Positions 5,931-23,946 of a stretch of 64,000 nucleotides of DNA are shown piece after piece; position 1 is the stretch's first letter; each line of letters opens with the position of its first letter. Where the stretch lies: NCBI RefSeq assembly GCF_001767395.1, contig NZ_CP017014.1, forward strand, positions 3,356,501 through 3,420,500, read 5' to 3'. The DNA is from Rhodococcus sp. WMMA185. GTDB taxonomy: Bacteria > Actinomycetota > Actinomycetes > Mycobacteriales > Mycobacteriaceae. The position numbers and the translations under genes are program-made. Under the pieces are notes generated by a model. The model did not search any database. It had not been told where the DNA came from and worked only from the letters and a program-made list of their open reading frames with translations.

Positions 5931-7091
5931 TCATGCCAGCGCAAGCAAGGCCAACGCGGCCTGCCGGGGAACCGTTACGTCCAGGCTCGTCAGCTTCTCG
6001 AATCTGCCGAGCCGGTTCAACACGGTGTTCCGATGGCAGAACAATTGCGCGGCGGTGTCGGTGACACTTCCAGTCGCGAGATAGACCCGCACCGTCTCGA
6101 CGATCCGGTCACGTTCCTCGTCCGTGATCGTGTCGAGGCCGGACAGGAGGTATGCCGAGAATTCCGTTTGATCATCCAAACGGCTCTTGGTCACTCGCGT
6201 CCACGCGTCGGTGAGCGTCCGTAGTCCGTGTTCACCCGGACGGATGGTTCGAAGTATCTCGTACGCTGTGTTCGCCGCCGAAGCCACTGAAACGAGACCG
6301 CGCGCCGCCGGGACCATGCCGCCGGAAATCTCCTGTAGTTGCCGGTACTGGCTCTCGGGCCCCCGGGTCTGTGTTCGCGGCGCCGGCCACAGAACTACCA
6401 CGCGGCCGGACTGGTTGAGAACGAAGAGATCTTCGCCCCTGGCGGCGAGCGTGTTCGCGATCCGGTGCACCATCTGGGACGATTCGCGGCCTGCAACGAC
6501 GACGCGGAACGTGTCGTCGGCGTCGACCTTCAGAGCACGGGCAACCTGGTCGACCTTGCTCGAGACCAGGGGTGCGGGCCCGAACAGCTCTGCCAGGTAT
6601 GTCTGCTGTTCGTCTCGGGTGGAAGCGGCCATCGCCGCCTTCTCTTCGAGATAACTCTGTTGCACCGCGCGGGCATGATCGTCGACCGCACTCCAGAGGC
6701 TGTCGACATGGAGTGCGAGAACCGTCATGTCCGTCGAATTTGCGCGCTCGAGCAGTGACGACCACAGGATGCCGAAGTCGAGACGGATCGCCGCCACCAG
6801 ATCTTCTACCGGGATTCCCTGTCGGGCACGTTGCCGTCCCAGCTCCTGGGAAAGCGAACCGAGTCGAGTCGTCGCCGGGCCGGTGATGACTGCCTCGAGT
6901 ATCAACCGAATCGACTCGCGGGCAGAATTCGCGAGATCATCCCTGGTCACAAGACCCGATTGATAAGATTCGACGGTCTCGAGCTTGTCGAGGAAGACCG
7001 TGGCCAGGTCATCGACCTCGTGCGTTGCGCCCAAGATCAGCTCACGCCAGCGCGGCAGACTCTCCCGTTTCCGCTTGGCGAGGTTTCTCAC
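5931..7091 (-). CDS. PucR/CdaR-family transcriptional regulator
   Basis: A 386-residue regulator. The C-terminal 60 residues carry the PucR-type helix-turn-helix (YLATGSVTDTAAQLFCHRNTVLNRLGRFEKL). The N-terminal half is helical and resembles the RsbR-like ligand domain common in actinobacterial PucR proteins, followed by a GGDEF-like middle domain. The start is GTG at 7091 with AAGGA six bases upstream. It is divergent from the MHS transporter, with 246 bases between them. PucR proteins usually activate catabolic genes for purines, amines or amino acids, so it is a likely regulator of the transporter and hydrolase. Confidence 0.88.
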   Translation of the reverse strand: MRNLAKRKRESLPRWRELILGATHEVDDLATVFLDKLETVESYQSGLVTRDDLANSARESIRLILEAVITGPATTRLGSLSQELGRQRARQGIPVEDLVAAIRLDFGILWSSLLERANSTDMTVLALHVDSLWSAVDDHARAVQQSYLEEKAAMAASTRDEQQTYLAELFGPAPLVSSKVDQVARALKVDADDTFRVVVAGRESSQMVHRIANTLAARGEDLFVLNQSGRVVVLWPAPRTQTRGPESQYRQLQEISGGMVPAARGLVSVASAANTAYEILRTIRPGEHGLRTLTDAWTRVTKSRLDDQTEFSAYLLSGLDTITDEERDRIVETVRVYLATGSVTDTAAQLFCHRNTVLNRLGRFEKLTSLDVTVPRQAALALLALA

Positions 7092-7337: not shown

Positions 7338-8660
7338 ATGAGCACCCCGCCCGCTGTACAGCTTGGCGAAAAGAAGCCAATTCCACCCGATACATCGCGG
7401 CGAGTGGCTTTCGCGGCGTTCGTGGGAACGGCGATGGAGTGGTACGACTTCTTTCTGTTCACCACTGCGGCTGCCCTGGTGTTCAATGTGCAGTACTTCA
7501 GTTCCGAAAATGCACTGACGGCGACGATGGCGTCGTTCAGCACCCTGGCGGTCGGGTTCGTTGCGCGCCCGGTGGGTGGACTGCTCTTCGGCTGGCTCGG
7601 GGACCGGGTCGGACGCAAGAAAATTTTGATGACGACCATCGTCGGCATCGGTATTTCCACCGTCCTGATCGGATTGCTGCCCAACTACTACTCGATCGGT
7701 GTCATCGCCCCGATCGCACTCGTCGTGTTGCGCATATTGCAGGGCTTGGCCGTCGGAGGCGAGTGGAGTGGCGCAGTCACGATCGCGGCCGAGTGCGCTT
7801 CGCCTTCGCAGCGAGCGAGGTACGCGTCGATCCCGCAACTCGGATCGCCGGTGGGGACGATCATGTCCTCGGGAGCATTCTTCATCACAGCAGCCGTGTT
7901 ATCCGAAGATGTATTCAATTCCTGGGGCTGGCGTATTCCCTTCCTGTTGGCTCTGCCGCTGCTGGGAGTCTCTGTCGTGATTCGAAAGCAACTCGAGGAA
8001 TCCCCCGAATTCGAAGCCTTGCAGAAACAAGACTCGGTTTCGGAAGCACCACTACGCCAAGTGTTCTCCGGGGCATGGCGGCAACTTCTCGTCGGCGCTT
8101 CGGTCATGTTCATCGGAACCGGCGGGTTCTACCTGATGACGACGTTCGTCATCAGCTACGGCAAACGCGCTCTCGATCTCAGTGCGACAATGCTCCTTCT
8201 TGCCACCGTTATCGCAGCAGTAGTCCAGCTGCCCGTCATCATCAGCGGTGGAAGACTGGGCACACGATTCGGTTCGAGCCGCGTCGTGCTCGGCGGAGCG
8301 ATCGCAACGATAGTCTTGGCCTTCCCACTGTTCTGGGCGATCAGCACCGCGCAACCTGTGCTCGTCGTGATCGCCATGACCGTCGGGGTCGCGGCCATCT
8401 CGTATCCGTACGCAGTCAGCGGCGCGGTATTGACCAGCCTGTTCCCCGCGAAGGTCCGATACAGCGGTGTGTCCGTCTCGTCGAACATCGCGGGAATGGC
8501 AGCCGGGTTCGTACCGCTGATCGCGACAGCCGTTCTCACCGTGACCGGCGATACCCTCTGGCCCGCAGCGGTCATCCTCGTCCTCATCGGCGTGATCGCC
8601 TTGGTCGGCGCCATCATCACGCCCCGATGGAGCGTGGCCGAAGCGGGGCTCAAGCACTGA
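7338..8660 (+). CDS. MFS transporter, metabolite:H+ symporter (MHS) type
   Basis: A 440-residue, twelve-span inner-membrane transporter. The opening FVGTAMEWYDFFLF is the signature of the MHS branch (ShiA, ProP, KgtP, PcaT relatives), and the loop 2-3 motif is seen as GWLGDRVGRKKIL. MHS proteins import organic acids, betaines and related solutes with protons. The start is set at the ATG 7338, preceded by GGAG; the longer upstream reading frame lacks membrane character and is not used. The following hydrolase starts 76 bases after the stop, so the transporter probably brings in the compound that the hydrolase attacks. Confidence 0.92.
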   Translation: MSTPPAVQLGEKKPIPPDTSRRVAFAAFVGTAMEWYDFFLFTTAAALVFNVQYFSSENALTATMASFSTLAVGFVARPVGGLLFGWLGDRVGRKKILMTTIVGIGISTVLIGLLPNYYSIGVIAPIALVVLRILQGLAVGGEWSGAVTIAAECASPSQRARYASIPQLGSPVGTIMSSGAFFITAAVLSEDVFNSWGWRIPFLLALPLLGVSVVIRKQLEESPEFEALQKQDSVSEAPLRQVFSGAWRQLLVGASVMFIGTGGFYLMTTFVISYGKRALDLSATMLLLATVIAAVVQLPVIISGGRLGTRFGSSRVVLGGAIATIVLAFPLFWAISTAQPVLVVIAMTVGVAAISYPYAVSGAVLTSLFPAKVRYSGVSVSSNIAGMAAGFVPLIATAVLTVTGDTLWPAAVILVLIGVIALVGAIITPRWSVAEAGLKH

Positions 8661-8736: not shown

Positions 8737-10002
8737 ATGACCACTGTCAGCAAGAACGATCTGGACCGGACCGTACTCGCGGACTTCGAGAAGCTGTCAC
8801 AGTTCGGTGCGACCACCGGCGGGGGCGTCGATCGGCAGGCTGCCACCGCCGATGACGGGGCGCAGCGCGCATGGCTTGCCCAGTGGCTCGCCGACCGCGG
8901 ATTTCGTGTCGAATACGACCGCGTAGGAAACCAGTTCGGGCTACTCGAGATCAACCCCGGTGCCCCGTACGTTCTCACCGGCTCCCATCTGGACAGTCAG
9001 CCGCTCGGCGGACGCTACGACGGGGCGTACGGCGTACTCGCCTCGGCGCACGCCGCTCACCGGATCGCCCAGCAATGGCGCGACGGAGACATCGCGCCGA
9101 AATACAACCTCGCAGTGGTCAACTGGTTCAACGAAGAAGGCTGTCGGTTCAAGCCGAGCATGATGGGAAGCGCTGTCTTCACCGGCAAACTCGATGTCGA
9201 ACAAGCCTTGTCGACCACCGACCACGACGGTGTCTCGGTCGCAGACGCGCTGTCGGGTATCGGCTGTCTGGGATCGGGTACCGGGCCGGAAGCTGCAGCA
9301 TTCGCCGAGATCCACATCGAGCAGGGCAGAAATCTCGAGAACGACGGAATCACCATCGGTGTAGTCGATTCCACCTGGGCGGCCCAGAAATACGAGCTGG
9401 TGATCCACGGGGAGCAGTCACACACCGGATCGACGACCATGCCCGATCGGCGCGATGCGCTTCTCGGAGCTTCCCTGCTGGTGGTCGCGGCGCGCGAGTT
9501 GGCGGAGGAGTTCGCGGACGCGCCGCTGCACACCTCGGTGAGCCAGATGACCATCGAGCCCAACTCCCCAGTCGTCATTGCCCGGGAAGTACGGATGAAT
9601 CTCGACCTACGTTCGCCGAACGAGTCGGTCGTCGACCTCGCCGACGAGCGATTGACGGCCCGCTTCGCCGACATCGAATCCCGGGCGCGGGTGCGCATCG
9701 AAAAGGCCGCCGCCCATTCCTGGGGTGTGGCCGGCTATCAGCCGGAAGGGGTGAAACTCTCGATGAGCGCCGCGGACGATCTGGGACTGACATATCGCCA
9801 GATCATGACCGTCGCCGGGCACGACTCGGTGAACACTAAGGACGTCGCCCCGACGGTGATGCTCTTCGTGCCGAGTGTCGATGGAATCTCGCACAACGAG
9901 CACGAGTTGACGGCCGACGAAGACGTGTGCGCCGGTGTGGATCTGCTGACCGAAATCGTCGGCCGTCTCGCGGTCGGGGAGCTGGACAAGCCCCAACGAT
10001 GA
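8737..10002 (+). CDS. M20-family amidohydrolase, N-carbamoyl-amino-acid/ureidopropionase/allantoate type
   Basis: A 421-residue binuclear metal hydrolase of the hydantoinase/carbamoylase subgroup of M20. The metal-site motifs are in order: GSHLDSQPLGGRYDGAYG, the NWFNEEGCRF segment, IEQG, the lid motif SHTGSTTMPDRRDAL and the final SHNEHE. Family members hydrolyse N-carbamoyl-L-amino acids, beta-ureidopropionate or allantoate, releasing ammonia and carbon dioxide. Substrate type cannot be fixed from sequence. It follows the MHS transporter, suggesting import and hydrolysis of a ureido or amide compound. It converges on the GntR gene across a short hairpin. Confidence 0.9.
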   Translation: MTTVSKNDLDRTVLADFEKLSQFGATTGGGVDRQAATADDGAQRAWLAQWLADRGFRVEYDRVGNQFGLLEINPGAPYVLTGSHLDSQPLGGRYDGAYGVLASAHAAHRIAQQWRDGDIAPKYNLAVVNWFNEEGCRFKPSMMGSAVFTGKLDVEQALSTTDHDGVSVADALSGIGCLGSGTGPEAAAFAEIHIEQGRNLENDGITIGVVDSTWAAQKYELVIHGEQSHTGSTTMPDRRDALLGASLLVVAARELAEEFADAPLHTSVSQMTIEPNSPVVIAREVRMNLDLRSPNESVVDLADERLTARFADIESRARVRIEKAAAHSWGVAGYQPEGVKLSMSAADDLGLTYRQIMTVAGHDSVNTKDVAPTVMLFVPSVDGISHNEHELTADEDVCAGVDLLTEIVGRLAVGELDKPQR

Positions 10003-10008
10003 CCAGCC

Positions 10009-10035
10009 GGCACTGCGCTATCACGCGGCAGTGCC
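10009..10035. terminator. Hairpin between convergent genes, possible bidirectional terminator
   Basis: GGCACTGC at 10009-10016 pairs with GCAGTGCC at 10028-10035 around an 11-base loop. It lies in the 56-base gap between the convergent hydrolase and GntR genes. There is no T-tract, as is usual in high-GC actinobacteria. Confidence 0.5.
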
Positions 10036-10058
10036 CCTAGTTCACGAGTGCCTCCAGT

Positions 10059-10745
10059 TCACGGTTGCTGTGGCGACAGGTTCTCCTGCTGAGCCTGCAG
10101 ACGTTGGACGGCATCGTCTAGATGTTCGACAAGCATCCGCCGCACCTTCGGCGGCGCGCCGGTCCGGATCTCCTCGCGTAGGGCCGCATGTTCGGCCGCT
10201 TGTTCGCGGAGATCGGGGTAGGTGGTCTGTAGCGCACCCATGCACATCCGGGTCTCGATCAGCAAGGTCTTGGCTGCACGAACCAGGCGTGGGCTCGACG
10301 AACACTCCACCAGAATCTGATGGAACTTCTGATCGGCATCCGATACAGCCGCGGCGTTGCCACGTTCGGCCGCATCCCGCATCTCGAGCACAGCGGATTC
10401 GAGAGCCGCATAGGTAGCTTCCCGCCGCCCGTCGGCGAGGATCATGTCCAGTGCCCCGCGCTCGATCACCGATCTGCTGCGGTACACGTCCACGACGTCG
10501 TCCAGGGACAACTCCGTCACGAAGATCCCGCGATGGCGGATGCTGCGCAGTATGCCCTCCGACACGAGTCGTTGCATCGCTTCGCGCAGCGGTCCACGCG
10601 AGACCTGGAAGTGTGCGGCCAGCTCCGCCTCGCCCAACTGAGCACCCGGCTCGAGCGCGCCCTTCATGATGGCGGCTCTCAGTCGGTCCGCGATGAATTC
10701 GGCGGTTGATTGACGGCTGGCGGGTTCCAGGTCAGTCAGAGCCAT
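10059..10745 (-). CDS. GntR-family transcriptional regulator, FCD subfamily
   Basis: A 228-residue regulator. An N-terminal winged helix-turn-helix (ADRLRAAIMKGALEPGAQLG, then ELAAHFQVSRGPLREAMQRL) is followed by an all-helical FCD ligand domain with the metal-binding Asp/His pattern (KFHQIL, EHAALREEI). The ATG at 10745 is used; it has AAAGG upstream and overlaps the racemase stop by 14 bases, so it is coupled to the racemase operon. It is the likely ligand of the inverted repeats at 12321 and 17456, since it sits at the end of one of the two operons they flank. Confidence 0.92.
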   Translation of the reverse strand: MALTDLEPASRQSTAEFIADRLRAAIMKGALEPGAQLGEAELAAHFQVSRGPLREAMQRLVSEGILRSIRHRGIFVTELSLDDVVDVYRSRSVIERGALDMILADGRREATYAALESAVLEMRDAAERGNAAAVSDADQKFHQILVECSSSPRLVRAAKTLLIETRMCMGALQTTYPDLREQAAEHAALREEIRTGAPPKVRRMLVEHLDDAVQRLQAQQENLSPQQP

Positions 10746-11466
10746 GACTGTTGCCTTTCTCGAACAAGGTTCCGAACGACGGTTGCACCGCCGCGTGGCC
10801 CGCAAGACGCAGACCCTCCCAGATGGTCACCTGGTTTGCCGTGAGTACAGGCTTGCCGAGGCGCTGCTCGAGAGTACCGAGCACGCCCATCGTCCTCATG
10901 GCCGTATCGGGGATGAGCAGGGCTTGCGCTTGTGGGTGGTCGTTGCGCACTGCCAGCTCCTCGACTCGTTCCCGGCCGAGTAGACCGACCTCCGCCGCGG
11001 TTTCGATACCGGCGCTGGAAACGGAAAGCACGTCGACCCCCGCGGCGGCGAGGAACTCCACGAACAGCGTCGCTACGTCCTCCGGGTAACTCGCGACCAC
11101 TGCTATCCGAGTGAGACCGAGCACGTGCAGAGCGTTCACGAACGCGAAACTGGTGCTCGACGTGGGCACACCGGTTACCTGGGCGAGGCTGTCCACTTGT
11201 TGCTTCGCGCCCTCGGGGCCGTATACGAAGCTGCCCGACGTACACGCCCACATCACGGCGTCCGGTTTCTCGCCGGCGAGAAGCGTCGCCCCACCCGCGA
11301 GCTTCTCGGGACTGCCGAGGTCGAGCAATTCGGGTACGGCATGCAAGTCGGTGCCGTAGATGTGCGCGACCGGCAGATCCACTCCGAGGATCCGCGCGGC
11401 GAGGGGATAGTCGTCCTCGGCCGCATGATCGGGGTAGATGAATCCGACTGTGGGTGCGGTCGCCAT
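10732..11466 (-). CDS. Asp/Glu racemase-maleate isomerase family protein lacking the second cysteine
   Basis: A 244-residue member of the Asp/Glu/hydantoin racemase, maleate isomerase and arylmalonate decarboxylase superfamily. The first catalytic cysteine is present (Cys75 in MWACTSGSF), but the position of the second is Asp187 in LLIPDTAMRT, where its neighbour has SCTNLPTY. Arylmalonate decarboxylase also has a single cysteine, but on the other lobe. Decarboxylation, one-sided racemisation or a non-catalytic role are all open. The ATG at 11466 has AAAGGAG upstream. It is the middle gene of a leftward operon: racemase B, this gene, GntR. Confidence 0.82.
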   Translation of the reverse strand: MATAPTVGFIYPDHAAEDDYPLAARILGVDLPVAHIYGTDLHAVPELLDLGSPEKLAGGATLLAGEKPDAVMWACTSGSFVYGPEGAKQQVDSLAQVTGVPTSSTSFAFVNALHVLGLTRIAVVASYPEDVATLFVEFLAAAGVDVLSVSSAGIETAAEVGLLGRERVEELAVRNDHPQAQALLIPDTAMRTMGVLGTLEQRLGKPVLTANQVTIWEGLRLAGHAAVQPSFGTLFEKGNSHGSD

Positions 11467-11484
11467 TGTGTTCTCCTTTCCGGT

Positions 11485-11523
11485 CACAGGGTCCGATCAC
11501 AGGGTCCGATCACAGGGTCCGAT
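11485..11523. repeat. Three tandem 13-bp repeats between the racemase paralogues
   Basis: The unit CACAGGGTCCGAT occurs three times head to tail at 11485-11497, 11498-11510 and 11511-11523. The array fills most of the gap between the stop of racemase B and the ribosome binding site of racemase A; the last unit touches the stop codon of racemase B. Confidence 0.9.
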
Positions 11524-12278
11524 CACGAGGGCTGATCTCCGAAGACGTCCCGGAGCCACTGGCCCGGGCCGGACATCGGAAGTTTCATCCGGCCGAGACA
11601 AGCCCAGATCGTGAGTTGGTTGGCGGTGAGAACCGGTTTTCCGAGTTCGCGCTCGAGGGGGGCGATCACATCGTAGGTCGGCAGATTCGTGCAGCTGACG
11701 AAGATCGCCTCCGCATTCGGATCGTCCGCCTCGATGATGTGCTCGGCGATCGTGCGGTAATTGACCTTCCAGATGCCGCCACCGAGCCCGAGGTGGTCCG
11801 AGCGGACTACCTCGGTGCCTGCCTCGTCGAGAAAGGCGTGCAAGCGTTCGGTCAATGGCGCGTCGTAGGGAGTGATCACCGATAGTCTGCTCAGCCCGAG
11901 ATGCTCGATTGCCTCGACGAGCGCACCCGACGTCGTCACGGCTTGCTGGGCGCCGGCCTCGCACATCGCCTCGCACAGTGTTCGCTCGAAATCGAGGCCC
12001 TTGATGAAGCTCCCCGAGGTGCACAGGTAGGCCACGACCTCGGGTTCGACATGCAGGACGTCACGTGTTGCCGCCATGATGTGTCGCCGTTCGGAGACCA
12101 GTTCGGCCATCTCGAGACTGACGGGCACGGGCTCGTACGGGGTGCGTGCCAGATGCAGGCTCACCTCCAGCGGGGCCCACCGCCACAATTCTCGTTCGAG
12201 CGCGAGATCGAACGGGGCGATGATTCCTATTCCCCGTTGCGCGAGAGGCCCTTCGAATTCGGGAATGTTCAGTTCCAC
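11523..12278 (-). CDS. Maleate cis-trans isomerase-like protein of the Asp/Glu racemase family
   Basis: A 251-residue protein with both superfamily cysteines: Cys86 in AYLCTSGSF and Cys196 in FVSCTNLPTY. The N-terminal GIGIIAPFDLALERELWRW is characteristic of maleate isomerase-type members, and KPVLTANQLTIW near the end is shared with the next gene. Maleate isomerases act on maleate in nicotinate-type pathways, but relatives act on other dicarboxylates. GTG at 12278 is chosen because GGTGAGG lies six bases upstream. A TTG at 12332 would give 18 more residues but lies inside the operator palindrome. First gene of the leftward operon. Confidence 0.83.
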   Translation of the reverse strand: MELNIPEFEGPLAQRGIGIIAPFDLALERELWRWAPLEVSLHLARTPYEPVPVSLEMAELVSERRHIMAATRDVLHVEPEVVAYLCTSGSFIKGLDFERTLCEAMCEAGAQQAVTTSGALVEAIEHLGLSRLSVITPYDAPLTERLHAFLDEAGTEVVRSDHLGLGGGIWKVNYRTIAEHIIEADDPNAEAIFVSCTNLPTYDVIAPLERELGKPVLTANQLTIWACLGRMKLPMSGPGQWLRDVFGDQPS

Positions 12279-12320
12279 GCCAGGCCTCACCTTCGTTTCG
12301 GCCACACCCGTGCATTCTAA

Positions 12321-12334
12321 GATTGTTGACAATC
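12321..12334. promoter_or_regulatory. GntR-type operator, copy 1
   Basis: GATTGTTGACAATC is a perfect inverted repeat, six bases each side of a two-base centre. It lies between the divergent racemase operon and the dehydrogenase-amidase operon, 26 bases upstream of the dehydrogenase start. The same 14 bases recur inside the 17456-17473 repeat. Confidence 0.8.
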
Positions 12335-12360
12335 ATACGTTTTACTCATACGGTGTCAAC

Positions 12361-13335
12361 GTGACTCGGAACCCGATCGTTGCCGTGCTTCACGCCCATG
12401 TCCTGCCGAACCACGAACTCATGGCACCTGTTGAGGACCGTGCCGAGGTTCGTTACACGGATGAGGCGGGACTCATCGACGCCCTCGACGGCGCAGACGT
12501 CCTCTTCCTCTACGACTTCCTGACCGATGCCGTTCCGGGTGCATGGCACGCTGCGGGTTCCCTGCAGTGGCTACACATCGCGGCCGCCGGAGTCGATCCC
12601 GTCATGTTCCCCGAGATTCGCGACAGTGACGTCACCGTCACCAACTCACGGGGTGTGTTCGACGGAGCCATCGCCGAATACGTGCTCGCTCAGATCTTCT
12701 CCTTCGCGAAGGATCTTCCCGGCTCTCTCCGTCTGCAACAGGCCCACACCTGGCGGCATCGGGAATCCGAGCGCGTGGCCGGGAAGACCGCGCTGATCGT
12801 CGGCACCGGCCCGATCGGTCGTGCGACCGCCCGGCTGCTCCGCGCGGTCGGCATGGAGGTCAACGGATCGGGACGTCGCGCACGAGACACCGACCCGGAT
12901 TTCCGAACGGTCGCGGCCACGGAAGATCTCCCCGAGCAACTCGCCGCCGCCGACTACGTAATCGCGGCGGCACCACTCACCGATCAGACCCGGCACATGT
13001 TCCGCGACAAGGAATTCGCCGCAATGAAGCCGGGCGCACGATTCATCAACGTGGGCCGCGGCGAACTCGTCTGCACTGACGACCTCGTCGCCGCACTCGA
13101 GTCCGGAACCATCGCCGGCGCGGCGCTCGACGTATTCGACACCGAACCGCTCCCACCGGACCACCCGTTGTGGAGCATGCCGAACGTCTCTATCACACCT
13201 CACAATTCGGGTGATTTCACCGGATGGCGTGATGAGATCGTTACCGTGTTCACCGACAACTTCGAACGCTGGACGGCAGGCCGACCTCTCGAGAACATCG
13301 TAGACAAGGAGCTCGGATACGTACCGAGCCGATAG
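12361..13335 (+). CDS. D-isomer-specific 2-hydroxyacid dehydrogenase
   Basis: A 324-residue NAD(P)-dependent dehydrogenase. The nucleotide motif is GTGPIGRATARLLRAVGM, with the canonical NVGRGELVCTDDLVAALESG carrying the catalytic Arg region, DVFDTEPLPPDHPLW with the catalytic Glu, and His in SITPHNSGD. It interconverts a 2-keto acid and a D-2-hydroxy acid, or acts on a related compound. The start is GTG at 12361; no clear ribosome binding site precedes it and the operator is only 26 bases away, so a leaderless transcript is possible. The amidase follows after 29 bases. Confidence 0.88.
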   Translation: MTRNPIVAVLHAHVLPNHELMAPVEDRAEVRYTDEAGLIDALDGADVLFLYDFLTDAVPGAWHAAGSLQWLHIAAAGVDPVMFPEIRDSDVTVTNSRGVFDGAIAEYVLAQIFSFAKDLPGSLRLQQAHTWRHRESERVAGKTALIVGTGPIGRATARLLRAVGMEVNGSGRRARDTDPDFRTVAATEDLPEQLAAADYVIAAAPLTDQTRHMFRDKEFAAMKPGARFINVGRGELVCTDDLVAALESGTIAGAALDVFDTEPLPPDHPLWSMPNVSITPHNSGDFTGWRDEIVTVFTDNFERWTAGRPLENIVDKELGYVPSR

Positions 13336-13364
13336 CAGGACCGATTCAGGCTGAAGGAGTTTTC

Positions 13365-14735
13365 ATGAACCCCACCGACATGACCGCGGTCGAACTGGTC
13401 ACGGCCTATTCGTCCGGAGAATTGTCGCCTGTGGAGGCAACGCGAGCGGTCCTCGACGCCATCGACGCCCGTGACCGCGACATCAACTCGTTCTGCCTCG
13501 TCGACGAGGAGAGAGCGCTCGCGCAGGCCCGCGCATCGGAGGAACGCTGGGCAACCGGCTATTCGAAGGGACTTCTCGACGGAGTCCCGATCTCCATCAA
13601 AGACATCTTCCTCACCGACGGCTGGCCCACCCTCCGTGGCTCTCAGGCGATCGACGAATCCCAACCCTGGAATGTCGACAGCCCGGTCACCGCGCGCCTG
13701 CGCGAAGACGGAATGGTGTTCCTCGGGAAGACCACCACGCCCGAGATCGCATGGAAAGCAGTCACGGACAGCGCTTTGTGCGGTATCACCCGCAATCCGG
13801 CCGACCTCTCGAAGACGGCCGGCGGATCGTCGGGCGGCAGCGCCGCCGCGGTCGCAGCCGGCCTCGGTCCGTGCTCGGTCGGCACCGACGGAGGGGGCAG
13901 CATACGCATTCCGGCGTCGTTCTGCGGCACCGTCGGGTTCAAGCCGACGCATGGGCGCGTCCCCCTGTACCCGGCCAGCCCCTTCGGCCCCCTCGCACAC
14001 GCCGGCCCGATCACCCGGACGGTGGAGGACGCCGCGCTGCTGATGGACATCATGTCGCTACCGGACCCTCGTGACCCCACCTCGCTCGCCCCGCCGCGCG
14101 CGACCTTCCGCGGTGAGATCGGCCGGGACGTGGTCGGGCTCGGCGTCGCGTATTCCCCGACGCTCGGCTATGCCACGGTCGACCCGGAGGTCCGGGCCAT
14201 CATCGACCAGGCAGTGCAGGCACTCGACGCGGCAGGGCTTCCGGTCACCGCCGCCGATCCCGGCTTCACCGACCCGATCGACGCCTTCGAAGTGTTGTGG
14301 TCGTCCGGAGCCGCCGCCATGTTGAGAAGCTTCCCCGATGGCACGCGCGACAAGGTCGACCCCGGACTGGGGAAAGCCTGGGAACGCGGCGAAAAGCTCA
14401 GTGCCGTCGACTACCTCGAAGCCCGCGCCGTCGCAGCAGACGTCGGTATCACGATGGGCAAGTTCCACCAAACGCACGACATCCTGCTCACACCCACCGT
14501 CCCGATACCCGCCTTCGACGCCGGTCACGACGTCCCACCCGGCAGCGCCTTCACCAGTTGGGCACAGTGGACCCCGTTCACCTACCCCTTCAACCTCACA
14601 CAGCAACCGGCGATGAGCCTCCCGGTCGGGAAGACAGCGGCCGGACTGCCCGTCGGTCTGCAGATCATCGGCCCCCGGCACTCGGACGACCTCGTCCTCG
14701 CCGTCTCGCGATATGCCGAACACGTACTCGGCTAG
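13365..14735 (+). CDS. Amidase, amidase-signature family
   Basis: A 456-residue amidase-signature hydrolase. The Ser-cisSer-Lys triad is readable: Lys79 in ISIKDIF, cis-Ser155 in GGSSGGS and the nucleophile Ser179 in GTDGGGSIRIPA. Full family length. These enzymes hydrolyse carboxamides or open small imides, releasing ammonia. The ATG at 13365 has AAGGAG eight bases upstream. It is the second gene of the rightward operon from the 12321 operator and converges on the PhzF gene with eight bases between stops. Substrate is unknown; an amide acid derived from the imported compound is likely. Confidence 0.92.
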   Translation: MNPTDMTAVELVTAYSSGELSPVEATRAVLDAIDARDRDINSFCLVDEERALAQARASEERWATGYSKGLLDGVPISIKDIFLTDGWPTLRGSQAIDESQPWNVDSPVTARLREDGMVFLGKTTTPEIAWKAVTDSALCGITRNPADLSKTAGGSSGGSAAAVAAGLGPCSVGTDGGGSIRIPASFCGTVGFKPTHGRVPLYPASPFGPLAHAGPITRTVEDAALLMDIMSLPDPRDPTSLAPPRATFRGEIGRDVVGLGVAYSPTLGYATVDPEVRAIIDQAVQALDAAGLPVTAADPGFTDPIDAFEVLWSSGAAAMLRSFPDGTRDKVDPGLGKAWERGEKLSAVDYLEARAVAADVGITMGKFHQTHDILLTPTVPIPAFDAGHDVPPGSAFTSWAQWTPFTYPFNLTQQPAMSLPVGKTAAGLPVGLQIIGPRHSDDLVLAVSRYAEHVLG

Positions 14736-14743
14736 GAGAAACC

Positions 14744-15565
14744 CTAGAACTCGACGATGCCCCTGAGGTACCGCCGGTACGACCCGGACAGGTGGACGCG
14801 GTCGCCGCGCACGTCGCAGTGAACGGTTCCGCCACGCGCCGACAGTTGCCGGCCGACAAGGCTCGCACGCCCCAGCACGGAAGCCCAGTACGGCGCGATC
14901 TGCGAGTGCGCGGAGCCCGTCACCGGGTCTTCCTGAATCCCTGCCTCGGCGCCGAACACTCGCGACACGAAGTCGACTCCGTCCGCGTCCGACGCGGCGG
15001 TCACCACGATGCAGCGCACCTTCAGCTGACTGATCACGCCGAAGTCGGGCGTCATCGAGGCAATGTCGTGTTCGGACTCCGCGACGAACACGAGGTCGGT
15101 GGCCTGCAGGCACTCCCGCACCCCAATGCCGAGCGCCGCGACGATCCGCGGGTCGGCGGTGATCGACTTCAGCGGCTCGGCCGGAAAATCCATCACCAGT
15201 GTCGTGTCCGGCCCCCGATCGACATTCAGCCAGCCACTGCGCGTCCAGAATTGGATCCGGTCGGCGTCTGGGTGCAGGTCCTCGAAAATCTGCGCGGCGG
15301 TAGCGAGGGTGGCGTGACCGCACAGGTCCACCTCGACGGCAGGTGTGAACCATCGCAGGTGATAGGCCGGCGTGTCCCGGTCGTGGGACGTAGCGTCAGC
15401 GGGAAGACGAGCCGTGTAGAACGCCGTCTCGGACAGATTGTTCTCTTCCGCCAGTTGCTGGAGAACAGAATCTCCTGGCCACTCGGTCAGCGGCATGACG
15501 GCAGCCGGGTTGCCCTCGAAGGGTCCGGCGGCGAATGCGTCGATCTGATGGATATCCAACTTCAT
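14744..15565 (-). CDS. PhzF-family isomerase
   Basis: A 273-residue PhzF-type protein with diaminopimelate-epimerase fold. Recognisable segments are the N-terminal QIDAFAAGPFEGNPAAVMPL, ENNLSETAFY with the family Glu, LRWFTPAVEVDLCGHATLA and, near the end, EDPVTGSAHSQIAPYW. Family members isomerise by proton shuttling. The cysteine in DLCGHAT corresponds to an epimerase-type position, so racemase or epimerase activity is possible. The ATG at 15565 is chosen; the upstream extension is not family-like. It is the last gene of the leftward operon with the aminotransferase and DUF3830 genes. Confidence 0.85.
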   Translation of the reverse strand: MKLDIHQIDAFAAGPFEGNPAAVMPLTEWPGDSVLQQLAEENNLSETAFYTARLPADATSHDRDTPAYHLRWFTPAVEVDLCGHATLATAAQIFEDLHPDADRIQFWTRSGWLNVDRGPDTTLVMDFPAEPLKSITADPRIVAALGIGVRECLQATDLVFVAESEHDIASMTPDFGVISQLKVRCIVVTAASDADGVDFVSRVFGAEAGIQEDPVTGSAHSQIAPYWASVLGRASLVGRQLSARGGTVHCDVRGDRVHLSGSYRRYLRGIVEF

Positions 15566-15637
15566 GGCGTCCGATGATGGTGGCCGACCTGAACGAAGTC
15601 GAGGGCCATCCCGCACTCTCTGGACCGGTCCCGCCCC

Positions 15638-16132
15638 TCAGTCCCGAGCGAAACTCAGTGTCTCACCTTCGACCCCACGCATCCACAGATCGTTGCAGGC
15701 GGCGGCCAGTTCCGGTAACCCCTCCTCGATGGCGGCGAAGACGTTGCCCGGTACCCAGCCGACGTCGCCGTTGATCAGAAGGTTGTTGCGGCCGTAAAAG
15801 ATTGCAAGATCCGTGGCACCCTGCGCGGCGTGCGCCTCGGAACCGGGCTCGTAGCCGTAGGCGGAGTTGCCGATCTCCCACGGCTCGAAGTCGAACAGGC
15901 ACACGTCTCCGGGAATCGGTGTGACGGTGGGGTTCTCGCGATGTGGCGCCTGCGTGATACGCGGGATCAGCGTGTATACCTCGTTGCGCGCATACTTGGC
16001 GTGGTATGCGTCTCCGCTCTGCGGGAGTGCATTCCAGACGGCGTCGCAGGTGAGCGGCGCCTCGTCGTCGAGGAGTCGGGCGCGACACGTCACGCCGCGC
16101 TTGTCGAGGGTGATGGTGATGTAGCGGGCCAC
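15638..16132 (-). CDS. DUF3830 family protein, cyclophilin-like fold
   Basis: A 164-residue soluble protein that I recognise as DUF3830, a family predicted to have a cyclophilin-like barrel and no assigned function. Typical features are the opening ITLDKRGVTCRARLLDDEAPLTC and LFDFEPWEIGNSAYGYEPG. The GTG at 16132 has GAGGAGG at good spacing. It lies between the aminotransferase and PhzF genes in a leftward operon. The family tends to sit among nitrogen-compound catabolic genes, which fits here; that statement is from general memory, not a search. A catalytic role would be new. Confidence 0.75.
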   Translation of the reverse strand: MARYITITLDKRGVTCRARLLDDEAPLTCDAVWNALPQSGDAYHAKYARNEVYTLIPRITQAPHRENPTVTPIPGDVCLFDFEPWEIGNSAYGYEPGSEAHAAQGATDLAIFYGRNNLLINGDVGWVPGNVFAAIEEGLPELAAACNDLWMRGVEGETLSFARD

Positions 16133-16163
16133 GATTCCTCCTCGTAGAACGGTCGGATCCGGA

Positions 16164-17405
16164 TCAGATCTCCTCGAGGACTTCCGACCAGAGTGTCAGC
16201 GCATCCTCCACCTGTTCTGCCGTCACGACGAGCGCCGGAATCATTCGCACCACGTTCATGTGAGCGCCGCAGGTCAGCAGCAGTAGCCCCTTCTTCGCGG
16301 CCAATTGCTGCGCGGCAGCCGCTTTCGCTCGATCCGGGGAACCGTCGGCAGCGGTGAACTCACTGCCCACCATCAGTCCGAGACCGCGCACATCCCCCAC
16401 CGCCGAGGTAGCCGTGCGGCGAGCACCCTCGATAAGTTGCGTGCCGCGAGTGGCCGCGTTGGCCACGAGGCCTTCCTTCTCGATCACTTCGAGCGTCGCG
16501 ATCGCGGCCGCGCAGGACACCGCGTTTCCCCCGTACGTTCCGCCCTGCGAACCCGGCCAGGCCTTGGCCATCAACTCCTCGGACGCCGCAATGCCCGACA
16601 GCGGGAACCCACTGGCCAGCCCCTTGGCGATCGTGATGATGTCGGGCCGGACATCGAAGTGTTGGTGTCCGAAGAACTTGCCGGTGCGTCCGAAACCGGT
16701 CTGGATCTCGTCGATGACGAGCAGGATGCCGTACCGGTCGGCTCGCTCGCGGAGTCCCTGGAAGAACGCGGTGTTGCCCGGCACATAGCCTCCCTCACCC
16801 AGGACGGGTTCGACGACGAACGCGGCCGTCTCCTCCGGCGCGGTGAGAGTGGAGAAGATGTAGTCGAGTTCTTTGAGCGCAAAGGCGGTGGCCTCTTCCT
16901 CCGTCCATCCATAGCGGTAGGCATCCGGGAACGGCGCAACATGGACACCACCCATCAACGGGCTGAAGCCTGCCGAGAACCGGGTTCCCGATGTGGTCAT
17001 GGTCGCCGCCGCGACCGTGCGTCCGTGGAAGCCGCCGTGGAAGACGATCACGTTGGGACGCCCCGTCGCCTGTCGTGACAGACGAAGCGACGCCTCCACT
17101 GCCTCGCTACCGGAGTTCGCGAAGAACACGGAATCGAGGTCGGCGGGCAGAACCGAGCCGAGACGCTCGGTCAGCTCGAGCATCGGCTGGTGCATGACCG
17201 TCGTGTACTGGCCGTGGATCAGCGAGCCGACCTGCCGGCGGGCGGCCTCCACGACGTGCGGATGGCAGTGCCCCGTACTGGTGACGCCGATACCCGCGGT
17301 GAAATCGAGATAGCGCCGACCATCGGTACCGTAGAGGTAGCAGCCGAGTCCATGATCAACCGTCACGGGTGTGGCCTGCGCGAGCAGTGGAGACAGCCGA
17401 GTCAC
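16164..17405 (-). CDS. Class III aminotransferase, 4-aminobutyrate transaminase-like
   Basis: A 413-residue pyridoxal-phosphate enzyme of fold type I, class III. Cofactor elements are visible: NSGSEAVEASLRLSR, FHGGFHGRT, IDEIQTGFGRTGKFF with the Asp that contacts the pyridine nitrogen, and the Schiff-base lysine in ITIAKGLASGFPLSG. Class III enzymes transfer terminal amino groups (4-aminobutyrate, beta-alanine, ornithine, taurine). The GTG at 17405 has GGGAGG upstream. It is divergent from a semialdehyde dehydrogenase, the classical partner that oxidises the aldehyde product, across the operator at 17456. Confidence 0.9.
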   Translation of the reverse strand: MTRLSPLLAQATPVTVDHGLGCYLYGTDGRRYLDFTAGIGVTSTGHCHPHVVEAARRQVGSLIHGQYTTVMHQPMLELTERLGSVLPADLDSVFFANSGSEAVEASLRLSRQATGRPNVIVFHGGFHGRTVAAATMTTSGTRFSAGFSPLMGGVHVAPFPDAYRYGWTEEEATAFALKELDYIFSTLTAPEETAAFVVEPVLGEGGYVPGNTAFFQGLRERADRYGILLVIDEIQTGFGRTGKFFGHQHFDVRPDIITIAKGLASGFPLSGIAASEELMAKAWPGSQGGTYGGNAVSCAAAIATLEVIEKEGLVANAATRGTQLIEGARRTATSAVGDVRGLGLMVGSEFTAADGSPDRAKAAAAQQLAAKKGLLLLTCGAHMNVVRMIPALVVTAEQVEDALTLWSEVLEEI

Positions 17406-17455
17406 GAGAAACCTCCCACGGGTAGATACCGGCGAGCGTCGGCAGTGCGTATTGT

Positions 17456-17473
17456 CAGATTGTTGACAATCTG
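17456..17473. promoter_or_regulatory. GntR-type operator, copy 2
   Basis: CAGATTGTTGACAATCTG is a perfect inverted repeat, eight bases each side of a TG centre, and contains the whole 14-base repeat found at 12321. It is in the 115-base gap between the divergent aminotransferase and semialdehyde dehydrogenase genes. Confidence 0.85.
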
Positions 17474-17520
17474 TATAGCATGATCAGAGTCACTTCGGCA
17501 ACGGCGATTGGGGATGAAGC

Positions 17521-18969
17521 ATGCTCGAGGAAGAAGCGATCGGATCCGTTCCAACCGGCCTCTTCATCGGTGGCAAATGGCGCCAGAGCGCTCGCACCAT
17601 GCCGGTTCACGATCCCTCGACGGGGCAGATCCTCTGTGAAGTCGCGGACGCGGATGCCGCGGAGGCCGGTGAAGCGCTCGATGCCGCCGCGGAGGCGCAA
17701 CCGGCATGGGCGGCCACGCCACCTCGCGAGCGCAGCATCATCCTCACCGAAGCACACCGGTTGCTCCTCGAACACATCGACCGTCTCTCCCTCATCATGA
17801 CGCTCGAAATGGGTAAGACGCTTGCCGAGGCGCGCAGCGAAATCGCCTATGCCGCCGAATTCTTTCGCTGGTTCGCCGAGGAGGCCGTCCGGATCGACGG
17901 CGGGTACATGACTGCACCGGGTGGCGGATCTCGATTACTCTTGACACGCCAGCCAGTTGGTCCGAGCCTTCTCATCACACCGTGGAACTTCCCGATGGCA
18001 ATGGGTACCCGCAAGCTCGGACCCGCGATTGCCGCCGGGTGCACGTCCGTCATCAAGCCTGCCGCCCAGACTCCGCTGTCGATCCTCGCTCTCGCGGACA
18101 TCCTCGTGCAAGCAGGACTGCCCGACGGTGTCGTCAACGTTGTCACCACCTCCACCCCTGATGAGGTGATGACTCCGCTGATCCTCGACGGCCGCGCCCG
18201 CAAACTCTCGTTCACCGGATCCACGAAGATCGGGAAACATCTTCTGGAACTCTGCGCCCGTACTGTCATGCGCACGTCCATGGAACTCGGCGGCAATGCG
18301 CCATTTCTCGTCTTCGACGATGCAAACCTCGACGATGCCGTCACCGGTGCAATGGCTGCGAAGATGCGCAACATCGGGCAATCCTGTACGGCCGCCAACC
18401 GGATTCTCGTGCACAGCTCGGTCGTGGACGAGTTCACCCGCAGGATGACCGAACAGATGGCTGCTCTTCCCCTCGGGCGAGGCACCGAGGACGGCGTGGT
18501 GGTCGGACCGTTGATCGACGATGCAGCCGTCGAGAAGATCGATCGACTCGTCACGGATGCGGTCGAACGCGGAGCCACCGTGACGACGGGCGGTACACGC
18601 CTCGACCGCCCGGGCAGCTTCTACCCCGCAACTGTCCTGACCGGCGTACCCGAGGACGCCGAGATGTGCCACGACGAGATCTTCGGACCGGTAGCCGCGA
18701 TCAGCACGTTCGACACCGAAGCGGAAGCGGTCAAGCGAGCCAACGACACGCCGTACGGCCTGGTGGCCTTCGTCTACACCGAGAGCCTCACTCGGGGAAT
18801 TCGGGTGTGCGAAGCACTGGAGTCCGGAATGGTCGGGCTCAACCAGGGCGTCGTGTCGAACCCGGCGGCACCCTTCGGTGGCGTGAAGGAATCCGGACTC
18901 GGGCGTGAGGGCGGGCCCACCGGCATCGACGAGTTCCTCGAGACCAAATACATAGGCATCACCGTGTGA
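17521..18969 (+). CDS. NAD(P)-dependent aldehyde dehydrogenase, succinate-semialdehyde dehydrogenase-like
   Basis: A 482-residue aldehyde dehydrogenase of the length and pattern of GabD-type enzymes. Cofactor-site PWNFPMAMGTRKLGPAIAAG, FTGSTKIGK, general base Glu255 in MELGGNAPF and nucleophile Cys289 in GQSCTAANR are all present. It would oxidise a short omega-semialdehyde to the dicarboxylate. Divergent from the class III aminotransferase, it completes an amine-to-acid module. Malonate semialdehyde is a less likely substrate, as the sequence is not of the CoA-acylating type. Regulated, by inference, from the 17456 operator. Confidence 0.9.
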   Translation: MLEEEAIGSVPTGLFIGGKWRQSARTMPVHDPSTGQILCEVADADAAEAGEALDAAAEAQPAWAATPPRERSIILTEAHRLLLEHIDRLSLIMTLEMGKTLAEARSEIAYAAEFFRWFAEEAVRIDGGYMTAPGGGSRLLLTRQPVGPSLLITPWNFPMAMGTRKLGPAIAAGCTSVIKPAAQTPLSILALADILVQAGLPDGVVNVVTTSTPDEVMTPLILDGRARKLSFTGSTKIGKHLLELCARTVMRTSMELGGNAPFLVFDDANLDDAVTGAMAAKMRNIGQSCTAANRILVHSSVVDEFTRRMTEQMAALPLGRGTEDGVVVGPLIDDAAVEKIDRLVTDAVERGATVTTGGTRLDRPGSFYPATVLTGVPEDAEMCHDEIFGPVAAISTFDTEAEAVKRANDTPYGLVAFVYTESLTRGIRVCEALESGMVGLNQGVVSNPAAPFGGVKESGLGREGGPTGIDEFLETKYIGITV

Positions 18970-19024: not shown

Positions 19025-22582
<3,558 letters not shown>

Positions 22583-22625
22583 AAGACGCTCCTGTCTCGC
22601 TAGATTGTTCAGTTACCTCTGAGAC

Positions 22626-22639
22626 TAGAACACGTTCCC
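22626..22639. promoter_or_regulatory. KstR-type operator for hsaADCB
   Basis: TAGAACACGTTCCC matches 13 of 14 positions of TnnAACnnGTTnnA counted from 22626 (last base C). It is 43 bases upstream of the hsaA start. A second, better site serves kshA in the same divergent region. Confidence 0.75.
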
Positions 22640-22728
22640 ATTTATGTCGAGGTGCTCTCAAAAGTGCTGCTTGTAGGCCTGCGTCTGGACTAAAGGCGCG
22701 AAAGATCTAGCAGATTTGAGTCAAATTC

Positions 22729-22742
22729 TATAACGTGTTCTA
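22729..22742. promoter_or_regulatory. KstR-type operator for kshA
   Basis: TATAACGTGTTCTA matches the KstR pattern at every fixed position. It ends 29 bases upstream of the kshA start. The same 14 bases recur in front of kstD at 29394. Confidence 0.88.
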
Positions 22743-22771
22743 GTAACACCAAGAAGGGATGTGACGGCACA

Positions 22772-23944
22772 ATGGCGCAGATTCGCGAGATCGATGTGGG
22801 CACGGTCCAGACCCGCTTCGCGCGCGGTTGGCACTGCCTCGGGCTGACCAAGTCGTTCACCGACGGCAAGCCGCATTCGATCGAGGCATTCGGCACCAAA
22901 CTCGTCGTTTTTGCAGACAGCAAGGGTGAACTGCAAGTCCTGGACGCCTATTGCCGGCACATGGGCGGTGATCTGTCGCAGGGCACGATCAAGGGCGACT
23001 CCGTGGCGTGCCCGTTCCACGATTGGCGCTGGGGCGGCAACGGGAAGTGCACAAGCATTCCCTACGCACGTCGTGTCCCCCCGATCGCTCGGACCCGGGC
23101 GTGGATCACACTCGAGCGAAACGGCCAACTGTTCGTATGGAACGACCCGGAGGGCAACCCCCCACCCGACGATGTGACCATTCCCCGAATCGAGGCCGCG
23201 TACAGCGACGACTGGACCGACTGGACCTGGAACTCGATGCTCATCGAGGGCTCCAACTGTCGCGAGATCATCGACAACGTCGTGGACATGGCACACTTCT
23301 ACTACATTCACTACGCGTTCCCTACGTACTTCAAGAACGTCTTCGAAGGCCACATCGCTGCCCAGTACCTCAACACCAAGGGCAGGCCGGACATCGGAAT
23401 GGCGACCCAGTACGGCATGGACACCATGCTGCGCTCCGAGGCCGCGTACTACGGGCCCTCCTACATGATCAATCCCCTCTTGAACAGCTATGGCGGCTAC
23501 GAGGTCGAGAGTGTTCTCATCAATTGCCACTACCCGGTGACGAACAATTCGTTCGTCCTCCAATACGGAGTGACCGTCAAGAAGCCGAGTGGCATCGACG
23601 ACCAAGCAGCGGACAGACTCGCCGCGAAGTTCACGGAAGGCATTGCCGAGGGTTTCCTGCAGGACGTCGAGATCTGGAAGAACAAGACCAAGATCGAGAA
23701 CCCGCTGCTCTGTGACGAAGACGGCCCGGTGTATCAGCTACGCCGCTGGTACGAGCAGTTCTACGTCGACGTCGCCGACGTCACTGACAAGATGACTCAG
23801 CGTTTCGAGTTCGAGGTGGATACCACCAAGGCCAACGAGGCCTGGCAGCAAGAGGTCGAGGAGAACCTGGCCCGTCAAAAGGCAGAGCGCGAGGCCAAGC
23901 AGTCCGAGAAGCCGGCGTCCGAGAATACGGAAGCACAGGTCTGA
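22772..23944 (+). CDS. kshA: 3-ketosteroid 9-alpha-hydroxylase oxygenase (KshA)
   Basis: A 390-residue Rieske non-heme iron oxygenase. The Rieske cluster ligands are Cys61 and His63 in YCRHMGGDL and Cys80 and His83 in ACPFHDW. The mononuclear iron site is in IIDNVVDMAHFYYIHY with Asp and two His. KshA hydroxylates the C9 position of 3-ketosteroids, which, with KstD, opens ring B. Its reductase KshB is not in this window. The C-terminal 35 residues are charged and low in complexity. It is divergent from hsaA and two bases before a small Cys-rich gene. Confidence 0.97.
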   Translation: MAQIREIDVGTVQTRFARGWHCLGLTKSFTDGKPHSIEAFGTKLVVFADSKGELQVLDAYCRHMGGDLSQGTIKGDSVACPFHDWRWGGNGKCTSIPYARRVPPIARTRAWITLERNGQLFVWNDPEGNPPPDDVTIPRIEAAYSDDWTDWTWNSMLIEGSNCREIIDNVVDMAHFYYIHYAFPTYFKNVFEGHIAAQYLNTKGRPDIGMATQYGMDTMLRSEAAYYGPSYMINPLLNSYGGYEVESVLINCHYPVTNNSFVLQYGVTVKKPSGIDDQAADRLAAKFTEGIAEGFLQDVEIWKNKTKIENPLLCDEDGPVYQLRRWYEQFYVDVADVTDKMTQRFEFEVDTTKANEAWQQEVEENLARQKAEREAKQSEKPASENTEAQV

Positions 23945-23946
23945 TC

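Follow-up and report, generated by a model that had tools for sequence, protein, structure and literature searches.

Known catabolism of ectoine runs through EutD and EutE (DoeA and DoeB) with EnuR, a regulator of the MocR/GabR type whose operator is ATTGTnnnnnnACAAT (PMC8739950); EutR is described in PMC5320631. EutABC is needed for hydroxyectoine, and the precise activities are not known (PMC8739950). Ectoine consumers were once thought to be confined to the Proteobacteria, and the Actinobacteria are one of the main groups in which ectoine synthases occur (PMC5924519). A 2026 survey found Gram-positive ectoine clusters via EutD and EutB, calls them 'provisional', and has PucR beside those of the Bacillota (PMC13188858). 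In Acinetobacter a carnitine cluster holds a potential malate semialdehyde dehydrogenase and a predicted tartrate dehydrogenase (PMC6562126). Here we consider a stretch of 64,000 bases from Rhodococcus sp. WMMA185 (the window; bases 3356501-3420500 of a 4,444,448-base single-contig genome, NZ_CP017014.1). It carries an island of enzyme genes with a GntR/FCD regulator gene, gntR, and two copies of one short operator. We argue that the best explanation as a whole, and a rather probable one, is a pair of GntR operators governing a DoeA-independent regulon for 5-hydroxyectoine catabolism.

The island's enzymes are two arylmalonate decarboxylase-like proteins (RacA and RacB), a D-2-hydroxyacid dehydrogenase (2HDH), an amidase, a DUF3830 protein, a class-III aminotransferase (AT3) and a semialdehyde dehydrogenase (SSDH). 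Like the EutD/EutE-EnuR clusters of Ruegeria, Sinorhizobium and Halomonas, it combines an aminotransferase and an SSDH-like dehydrogenase with an EutA-like protein, and a putative repressor of the GntR superfamily with operators that overlap promoters (PMC8739950, PMC5924519). Hydroxyacid dehydrogenase genes occur in some eut clusters too, there with an undefined role (PMC5924519). Unlike those clusters, EutB, EutC, EutD and EutE are all absent over cut-off from 28 genomes of the genus, and the amidase, DUF3830 and RacB are new partners. The regulator is of the FCD type and lacks the pyridoxal phosphate aminotransferase-like domain of the MocR/GabR-type EnuR. The operator spacer is 2 bp here and 6 in ATTGTnnnnnnACAAT (PMC8739950). 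With the provisional Gram-positive clusters the island would share ectoine use in the Actinomycetota, and PucR, MFS and amidohydrolase genes adjoin it too, but those clusters were found via EutD and EutB whereas this regulon is DoeA-free in Rhodococcus (PMC13188858). The main text of that survey has no hit for GntR, Rhodococcus, Nocardia, Gordonia, Mycobacterium or amidase. The Acinetobacter carnitine cluster likewise has a semialdehyde dehydrogenase with a tartrate dehydrogenase, but it differs in its carnitine oxygenase, BCCT transporter and LysR, and its figure legend shows no aminotransferase, amidase or DUF3830 (PMC6562126).

The original prediction called the pathway unknown. That stands in so far as the gene set is in no paper of the open collection searched (mostly without subscription papers), nor is the regulon. 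The passages of PMC9608346 and PMC10454040 drawn on do not describe it. 'DUF3830' occurs in no paper of that collection, nor do 'hydroxyectoine' and 'hydroxyaspartate' together. The linkage to ectoine genes described below narrows the pathway to probable (hydroxy)ectoine catabolism.

The analysis was wholly computational and used two sets of relatives. For the first set the GntR protein was searched in 301 genomes of the family. Matches at E<=1e-40 were found in 120, of which 56, the window's own genome included, are gntR orthologues at 57% identity or more. This set comprises 39 regions of up to 20 kb each around GntR matches, plus one adjoining piece. The second set, the named loci, holds the best 80 of 533 confirmed RacB relatives, picked by alignment with RacB as query at one genome per species. 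The operator played no part in picking these 80, at least five of which are genomes already present in the first set. The genera spanned are Rhodococcus, Nocardia, Hoyosella, Amycolatopsis, Prauserella, Georgenia, Janibacter, Mycolicibacter and Actinocatenispora.

Two operators and their conservation

One operator (O1) lies between the 2HDH and RacB genes, the other (O2) between the AT3 and SSDH genes. The original prediction described both as perfect inverted repeats. Its coordinates hold, as do perfect arms of 6 bp at O1 (GATTGT/ACAATC) and 8 bp at O2, but in both cases the arms flank an asymmetric TG centre. The 14-mer GATTGTTGACAATC and its reverse complement thus have different bases at 2 positions. 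Its second copy (17458-17471) lies within the CAGATTGTTGACAATCTG of O2. These are the only exact copies in the 4.44-Mb genome, where base composition predicts 0.006, and both sit in the two divergent promoters. The original prediction saw no other copy in the window, and none turns up there when up to 2 mismatches are allowed. Nor does the genome hold many copies at unrelated genes, the outcome that would have counted against the original prediction. The first description also holds for the divergent gene pairs, for the GntR/FCD gene (10059-10745) and for the enzyme families.

Weaker sites exist elsewhere in the genome. The 10-mer TTGTTGACAA occurs at 6 places. Allowing up to 2 mismatches to the 14-mer adds 7 other places, 6 of them inside open reading frames (ORFs) according to a crude caller that in one run placed O1 itself inside an over-long ORF. 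The seventh lies between a LacI-type regulator and a succinate-dehydrogenase-like gene. There is one further perfect 12-mer core, ATTGTCGACAAT at G000:C1:2931679, inside a small ORF. A looser core, ATTGTNNACAAT with up to 1 mismatch, has 23 matches, compared with 3 of the reversed pattern (ORF context was looked at for 15 of the 23), so sites of this general shape are not rare. They probably belong to other regulators or to chance. More regulon members in the genome were considered and set aside, as the near-matches are mostly within ORFs or near unrelated genes.

The operator is conserved across genera. In the first set, where site positions were counted by eye, TTGTNNACAA lies between 2HDH and RacB in 30 of 39 regions and between 2HDH and GntR in 2 more. 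The other 7 have different gene orders, and 6 of them have sites adjoining core genes. The site also precedes AT3 in most of the first-set loci that hold AT3. In the named loci, whose species are related so that the gap counts are not independent, TTGTNNACAA is present in 79/79 gaps between 2HDH and RacB, in 53/54 between SSDH and AT3, and in 9/13 long and 15/68 short gaps between RacB and RacA. Another 16 sites were found there. Eleven adjoin a core gene for which the partner is absent or falls outside the stretch, and 5 do not; 3 of these 5 are within or beside 2HDH. The reversed control pattern gives 3 sites in the same 1,538,163 bases. The one named locus without the SSDH-AT3 site, from Citricoccus (L178), also has no gntR in its fetched 20 kb; gntR is linked in the other 79 of 80. 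Three Rhodococcus genomes (L109-L111) were fetched on purpose for their distant AT3-SSDH units. All three units keep the 18-bp operator at distances of 18, 38 and 104 kb from that of gntR.

The position of the sites within promoters points the same way. The consensus of 95 distinct 2HDH promoters that have the site is GATTGTTGACAATCATACG-N9-TACNGTGTCAA-N-GTG. The TTGACA of the operator would be the -35 hexamer and TACNGT, 17 bp on, the -10. The GTG start of 2HDH follows this putative -10 so closely that the transcript probably has no leader. Among the SSDH promoters, 63 distinct ones have the site, flanked there by a -35 of the TTG type and a -10 of the CATA/TATA type. An operator over the -35 at O1 and between the -35 and -10 at O2 is where one would expect a repressor to act. 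We argue that the two sites are very likely the conserved control signal of one GntR regulon, because the operator is conserved across genera and is placed in promoters. The original prediction of such a regulon is strongly supported on both counts.

FCD-type GntR catabolic repressors bring together a short TTGTNNACAA-like palindrome, divergent promoters and an autoregulated operon. The case here would differ from them in its target genes and its probable inducer. The recognition helix VSRGPxRE and the FCD positions D138, H142, H186 and H208 are invariant in 13 GntR members, down to 42% identity. We infer from the sequences that the GntR protein binds O1 and O2. Its gene overlaps racA and is read in the same direction as racB, downstream of it, so autoregulation is expected. 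The regulator would most likely repress RacB-RacA-gntR, 2HDH-amidase, AT3-DUF3830(-PhzF) and SSDH, and would be released on binding a carboxylate intermediate.

Linkage to ectoine genes in relatives

Four separate arrangements tie the regulon to ectoine genes. In the first, gntR has an EctD gene directly behind it in the same orientation; this holds for 11 of the 14 genus genomes whose gntR has at least 77% identity, with 797-949 bases between the listed starts. R. opacus and R. koreensis are among the carriers of this EctD form. The gene does not stand at this place in the window genome, in R. marinonascens (G122) or in a third genome (G278). All 11 gntR-linked copies are over the TIGR02408 cut-off (L047, 416.8 against 336.5 bits), and the L047 copy aligns to solved EctD (4mhr, 3emr) through the catalytic WHSDFETWH stretch. 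In four other loci (L072-L074 and L190, from Mycolicibacter sp. MYC340) EctA, EctB, EctC and EctD run contiguously into DUF3830 and the rest of the core; EctA, EctB and EctC of L072 are over their cut-offs. In L190 (6135-20055) an EctD-DUF3830-amidase-2HDH|RacB-RacA block is tandemly duplicated, and EctABC separates the two copies. In L076 an operator is followed by 2HDH and then by an EctD relative (47%). Finally, in L077-L079 a gntR relative (43-44% identity) with the same operator is accompanied by a gene for a ProP-like transporter and by genes for a YdiJ-like oxidase, SSDH, DoeA, an aminotransferase and an M20 deacetylase, which form a row on one strand. This DoeA scores 417.9 bits where the TIGR02993 cut-off is 613, which marks it as diverged.

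DoeA at E<=1e-60 was found in 58 genomes, 31 of which have a gntR match. It is within 15 kb of gntR in 29 of the 31, and in the other two the genes are on different contigs. EctD and DUF3830 also co-occur, in raw counts that ignore kinship. EctD is present in 78 of 90 genomes with DUF3830 and 82 of 211 without; within the genus these counts are 16/16 and 4/12. Of 170 EctD matches, 160 were used here, the ten weaker than about 1e-40 being dropped, and 145 of the 301 genomes have EctD over the curated cut-off.

Plasmid relatives of RacA and RacB were considered next to their neighbours. Among the 30 best listed for RacA, 14 are annotated EutA (30-33% identity over 95-99% of the length), 13 are unannotated spots, 2 are hypothetical and 1 is an Asp/Glu racemase. 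The one EutA plasmid locus opened reads ehuABCD-eutA-doeA-doeB, and RacA aligns end to end with its EutA. In Sinorhizobium sp. CCBAU 05631 a RacB homologue (40%) stands beside ehuCDAB, an aldehyde dehydrogenase and a transaminase of the diaminobutyrate (DABA) type. Further on in this plasmid locus (L100; RacB homologue at 9001-9627), at its end, there is a GATTGTCTACAATC palindrome. A Bradyrhizobium plasmid is ambiguous, since its RacB neighbours are annotated ehuA, ehuB and ehuD along with 5-oxoprolinase-like genes. The neighbours in Pseudohalocynthiibacter (a UbiD cluster) and Haladaptatus (hydantoinase/oxoprolinase) were of no help, and a plasmid search with DUF3830 gave no match. Plasmid pRHL1 of Rhodococcus jostii RHA1 (L198, NC_008269.1, about 9001-18536) has a second, diverged AT3 (67%) with the operator CTGATTGTTGACAATCAG in front, and an SSDH (57%) beside a YdiJ-like gene. 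This pair is perhaps a paralogous regulon unit.

The core genes and their neighbours

The island consists of GntR and seven core enzymes, to which further genes have been added locally. Some of the 80 named stretches end early, which affects the counts: RacA 80, RacB 80, GntR 79, 2HDH 78, amidase 78, DUF3830 67, AT3 64 and SSDH 55. No conserved uptake gene is found in the core of these loci. The transporter, M20 hydrolase and PucR genes of the window each occur in 1/80 (R. marinonascens). PhzF is also in 1/80, and stands behind AT3-DUF3830 in some Rhodococcus loci (L046, L109-L111). The original grouping of ten genes in one pathway was too wide; the transporter, M20 and PhzF fall outside the conserved core. 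Features are collected in Table 1.

Table 1. Positions of genes and control elements, in window coordinates except for the orphan EctD
Feature	Position	Strand	Remarks
MHS-type MFS transporter, accessory	7338..8660	+	TIGR00883 below cut-off; among loci examined, only here and in R. marinonascens
M20 amidohydrolase, accessory	8737..10002	+	among loci examined, only here and in R. marinonascens
GntR/FCD regulator, proposed repressor	10059..10745	-	PF00392 and PF07729 over cut-off; last gene of the predicted RacB-RacA-GntR operon, overlaps RacA
RacA, arylmalonate decarboxylase/EutA-like	10732..11466	-	PF17645; TIGR02990 below cut-off; one catalytic-type Cys, C75, Asp at second position
RacB, arylmalonate decarboxylase/maleate isomerase-like	11523..12278	-	both Cys, C87 and C197, conserved
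Operator O1, GATTGTTGACAATC	12321..12334		between 2HDH and RacB genes
Putative promoter, 2HDH-amidase operon	12326..12354	+	-35 TTGACA 12326-12331 inside O1, 17-bp spacer, -10 TACGGT 12349-12354; from conservation and spacing
D-2-hydroxyacid dehydrogenase (2HDH)	12361..13335	+	PF02826; GTG start at 12361
Amidase-signature amidohydrolase	13365..14735	+	PF01425, NF004815 over cut-off
PhzF-like isomerase, accessory	14744..15565	-	PF02567; among loci examined, follows AT3-DUF3830 only in some of Rhodococcus
DUF3830 protein with a cyclophilin-like fold, candidate for ring handling	15638..16132	-	PF12903; 3kop 222 bits
Class-III aminotransferase (AT3), GABA/DABA-type	16164..17405	-	PF00202
Putative promoter, SSDH gene	17452..17479	+	-35 TTGTCA 17452-17457, -10 TATAGC 17474-17479, O2 in between; predicted
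Operator O2, CAGATTGTTGACAATCTG	17456..17473		between AT3 and SSDH genes
Semialdehyde dehydrogenase (SSDH)	17521..18969	+	PF00171; TIGR01780 below cut-off
Orphan EctD, window genome	L104 9231-10217 (G000:C1:3115368-3116213)		far from ectoine synthase C1:2373742

'Racemase' is a family label for RacA and RacB. Both are over cut-off for the arylmalonate decarboxylase family. Against the Asp/Glu/hydantoin racemase model PF01177, RacB reaches 23.4 bits (cut-off 31) and RacA has no match. The best solved matches of RacA are arylmalonate decarboxylase variants (66.7 and 65.8 bits), and the top one likewise has only the first cysteine. We take the two cysteines of RacB to be those of a two-base racemase or isomerase. 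RacB has both and RacA only the first, so it is unlikely that they catalyze the same reaction. The DUF3830 model (mean predicted local distance difference test score 68.4) resembles 3kop and, to a lesser degree, the Pictet-Spenglerases KslB and McbB. Such enzymes handle C=N chemistry. Confidence in the model is only moderate, so this likeness is a lead.

Candidate genes for oxidizing 2-hydroxy acids recur in the loci. A tartrate-dehydrogenase relative is directly behind SSDH in 42 of the 55 named loci holding it, and in 2 of the other 13 (L121, L124) the fetched stretch stops at SSDH. The one scored (L157) has 488.6 bits against a TIGR02089 cut-off of 470.4. A D-2-hydroxyglutarate-dehydrogenase-like gene is beside SSDH or AT3 in six loci (L076-L079, L081, L082). 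In L076, L081 and L082 it is a long gene with FAD and iron-sulphur parts (about 720-1000 aa matched) between AT3 and SSDH, and takes the place of the tartrate dehydrogenase of other genera. A GlcD-like gene is behind DUF3830 in 11 named loci of the Amycolatopsis group. Together with 2HDH these would make up to four alternative ways of oxidizing a 2-hydroxy acid, judged by family.

Some further features should be recorded. A PucR-type regulator (5931-7091) adjoins the transporter and M20 genes. Directly beside SSDH are genes (19025-28482) which we take to be like HsaABCD and HsaFG of steroid ring degradation. The HsaBCD-like part stays beside the cluster in several relatives. In L202 (1690-1820) several head-to-tail copies of a short cacagcgtcaaaagtggccgatc-like repeat lie between two genes.

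Weighing the proposed pathway

We argue that the pathway is most likely catabolism of 5-hydroxyectoine, or of ectoine via hydroxyectoine. The families of AT3 and SSDH match, at family level only, those of the step from DABA to aspartate, a transaminase and an SSDH-like dehydrogenase. On the diamino acid derived from ectoine, steps of this type give aspartate (PMC5924519). By analogy the same two steps on the acid derived from hydroxyectoine would give 3-hydroxyaspartate, the amino analogue of tartrate. The tartrate-dehydrogenase relatives behind SSDH fit a 3-hydroxylated C4 intermediate.

The order of the reactions is tentative, and we consider the following scenario possible. The substrate would be 5-hydroxyectoine, as well as ectoine once hydroxylated by EctD, without the usual hydrolase DoeA/EutD. 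DUF3830 and the amidase are the free candidates for ring opening and deacetylation, which would yield 3-hydroxy-2,4-diaminobutyrate. AT3 would convert the 4-amino group to a semialdehyde and SSDH would oxidize this to 3-hydroxyaspartate. RacA and RacB may set the stereochemistry. The 2-hydroxy acid would then be oxidized by 2HDH, or in relatives by tartrate dehydrogenase, YdiJ or GlcD.

It must be noted that several observations weigh against hydroxyectoine as the substrate. EctD and tartrate dehydrogenase are both lacking from the cluster of the window itself. The single EctD of its genome is an orphan about 250 kb from the cluster with no operator in its 20-kb stretch. EctD is within the fetched DNA of only 4 of the 80 named loci. 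Ectoine synthase cannot tell genomes with the regulon from those lacking it, since it is in 28/28 of the genus. In these same 28 genomes no EutD/DoeA is over the TIGR02993 cut-off (weaker matches occur in 28/28, and in 14/14 controls), and TIGR02994 finds no EutE/DoeB at E<=0.001. EutB is over the TIGR02991 cut-off in none (weaker in 28/28, best 276.6 against 413.35 bits), nor is EutC over TIGR02992 (weaker in 15/28, with no match in the window genome). None of the 56 genomes with a gntR orthologue has the actinobacterial DoeA at E<=1e-60, and 27 of the 58 DoeA genomes have no gntR match, including all 25 with a more distant DoeA (58-63%). RacA and RacB score 121.8 and 100.4 bits against the EutA cut-off of 318 (TIGR02990), so they are homologous but not equivalogs. 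As the known Eut enzymes were not found over cut-off, the route is either largely new and independent of EutB/C/D/E, or it is something else.

One can imagine a real regulon acting on another 4-amino-3-hydroxy acid or its amide or lactam, such as 4-amino-3-hydroxybutyrate, with the nearby ectoine genes a coincidence or a shared stress context. AT3 would make malate semialdehyde, SSDH malate, and a tartrate/D-malate dehydrogenase pyruvate. AT3 is of the gamma-aminobutyrate (GABA) aminotransferase type, the 42 of 55 tartrate-dehydrogenase relatives suit this route too, and 76 of the 80 named loci lack EctD in their fetched DNA. The pairing in the A. baumannii carnitine cluster (PMC6562126) supports a 3-hydroxylated C4 semialdehyde, but not hydroxyectoine alone. 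This scenario leaves the four ectoine-gene arrangements unexplained, along with the closeness of DoeA to gntR in 29 of 31 genomes and the EutA-like RacA. No carnitine oxygenase or lactamase was noticed in the island, in which no search was aimed at them. We consider this scenario unlikely. A cluster that modifies or recycles hydroxyectoine made by the cell, instead of feeding on it, is less likely again. The contiguous EctABCD-DUF3830 of L072-L074 and L190 would suit biosynthesis or salvage, as would the general presence of ectoine synthase in the genus and a core without a conserved uptake gene. However, SSDH, tartrate dehydrogenase and the YdiJ-type oxidases point to oxidation towards central metabolism, and the DoeA operon of L077-L079 looks catabolic.

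The substrates first suggested were ureido acids, hydantoins, cyclic imides and pyrimidines, with M20 as a carbamoylase and RacA/RacB as hydantoin racemases. M20 is indeed over the allantoate amidohydrolase subfamily cut-off (NF006772, 452.5 against 424 bits), and amidase and racemase-like genes are present. But this suggestive M20 gene is in a single named locus and has no operator-like site before it in the window. RacA and RacB fit the arylmalonate decarboxylase family and not the hydantoin racemase model, and there is no hydantoinase among the island proteins scanned. We find no support for these substrates and consider the pathway improbable; it was set aside since M20 is not conserved. 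Most improbable is that the repeat is mainly a conserved strong promoter element, or the operator of a regulator other than the local GntR. It does contain TTGACA as the -35 hexamer of O1, and the many looser ATTGTNNACAAT sites suggest that related regulators may share its shape. But conservation in both arms outside TTGACA comes close to that of the hexamer, O2 lies between the -35 and the -10, and gntR is linked in every named locus except L178, which lacks both gntR and the SSDH-AT3 site. A bare promoter element was set aside because the arms are conserved.

Returning to 5-hydroxyectoine catabolism, a wider reading can be stated, which we regard as doubtful but worth considering. Many actinobacteria may have a DoeA-free hydroxylative ectoine route under one FCD-type GntR. 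EctD would be recruited as the first catabolic step, DUF3830 and the amidase would open the ring, and exit would be via 3-hydroxyaspartate and tartrate-dehydrogenase-like oxidation. If this is true, EctD, known as a biosynthetic enzyme, would serve catabolism. Hydroxyectoine is a widespread bacterial stress protectant. The regulon offers a concrete regulator, an operator and seven candidate enzymes, including a DUF3830 protein without assigned function, in tractable Rhodococcus strains.

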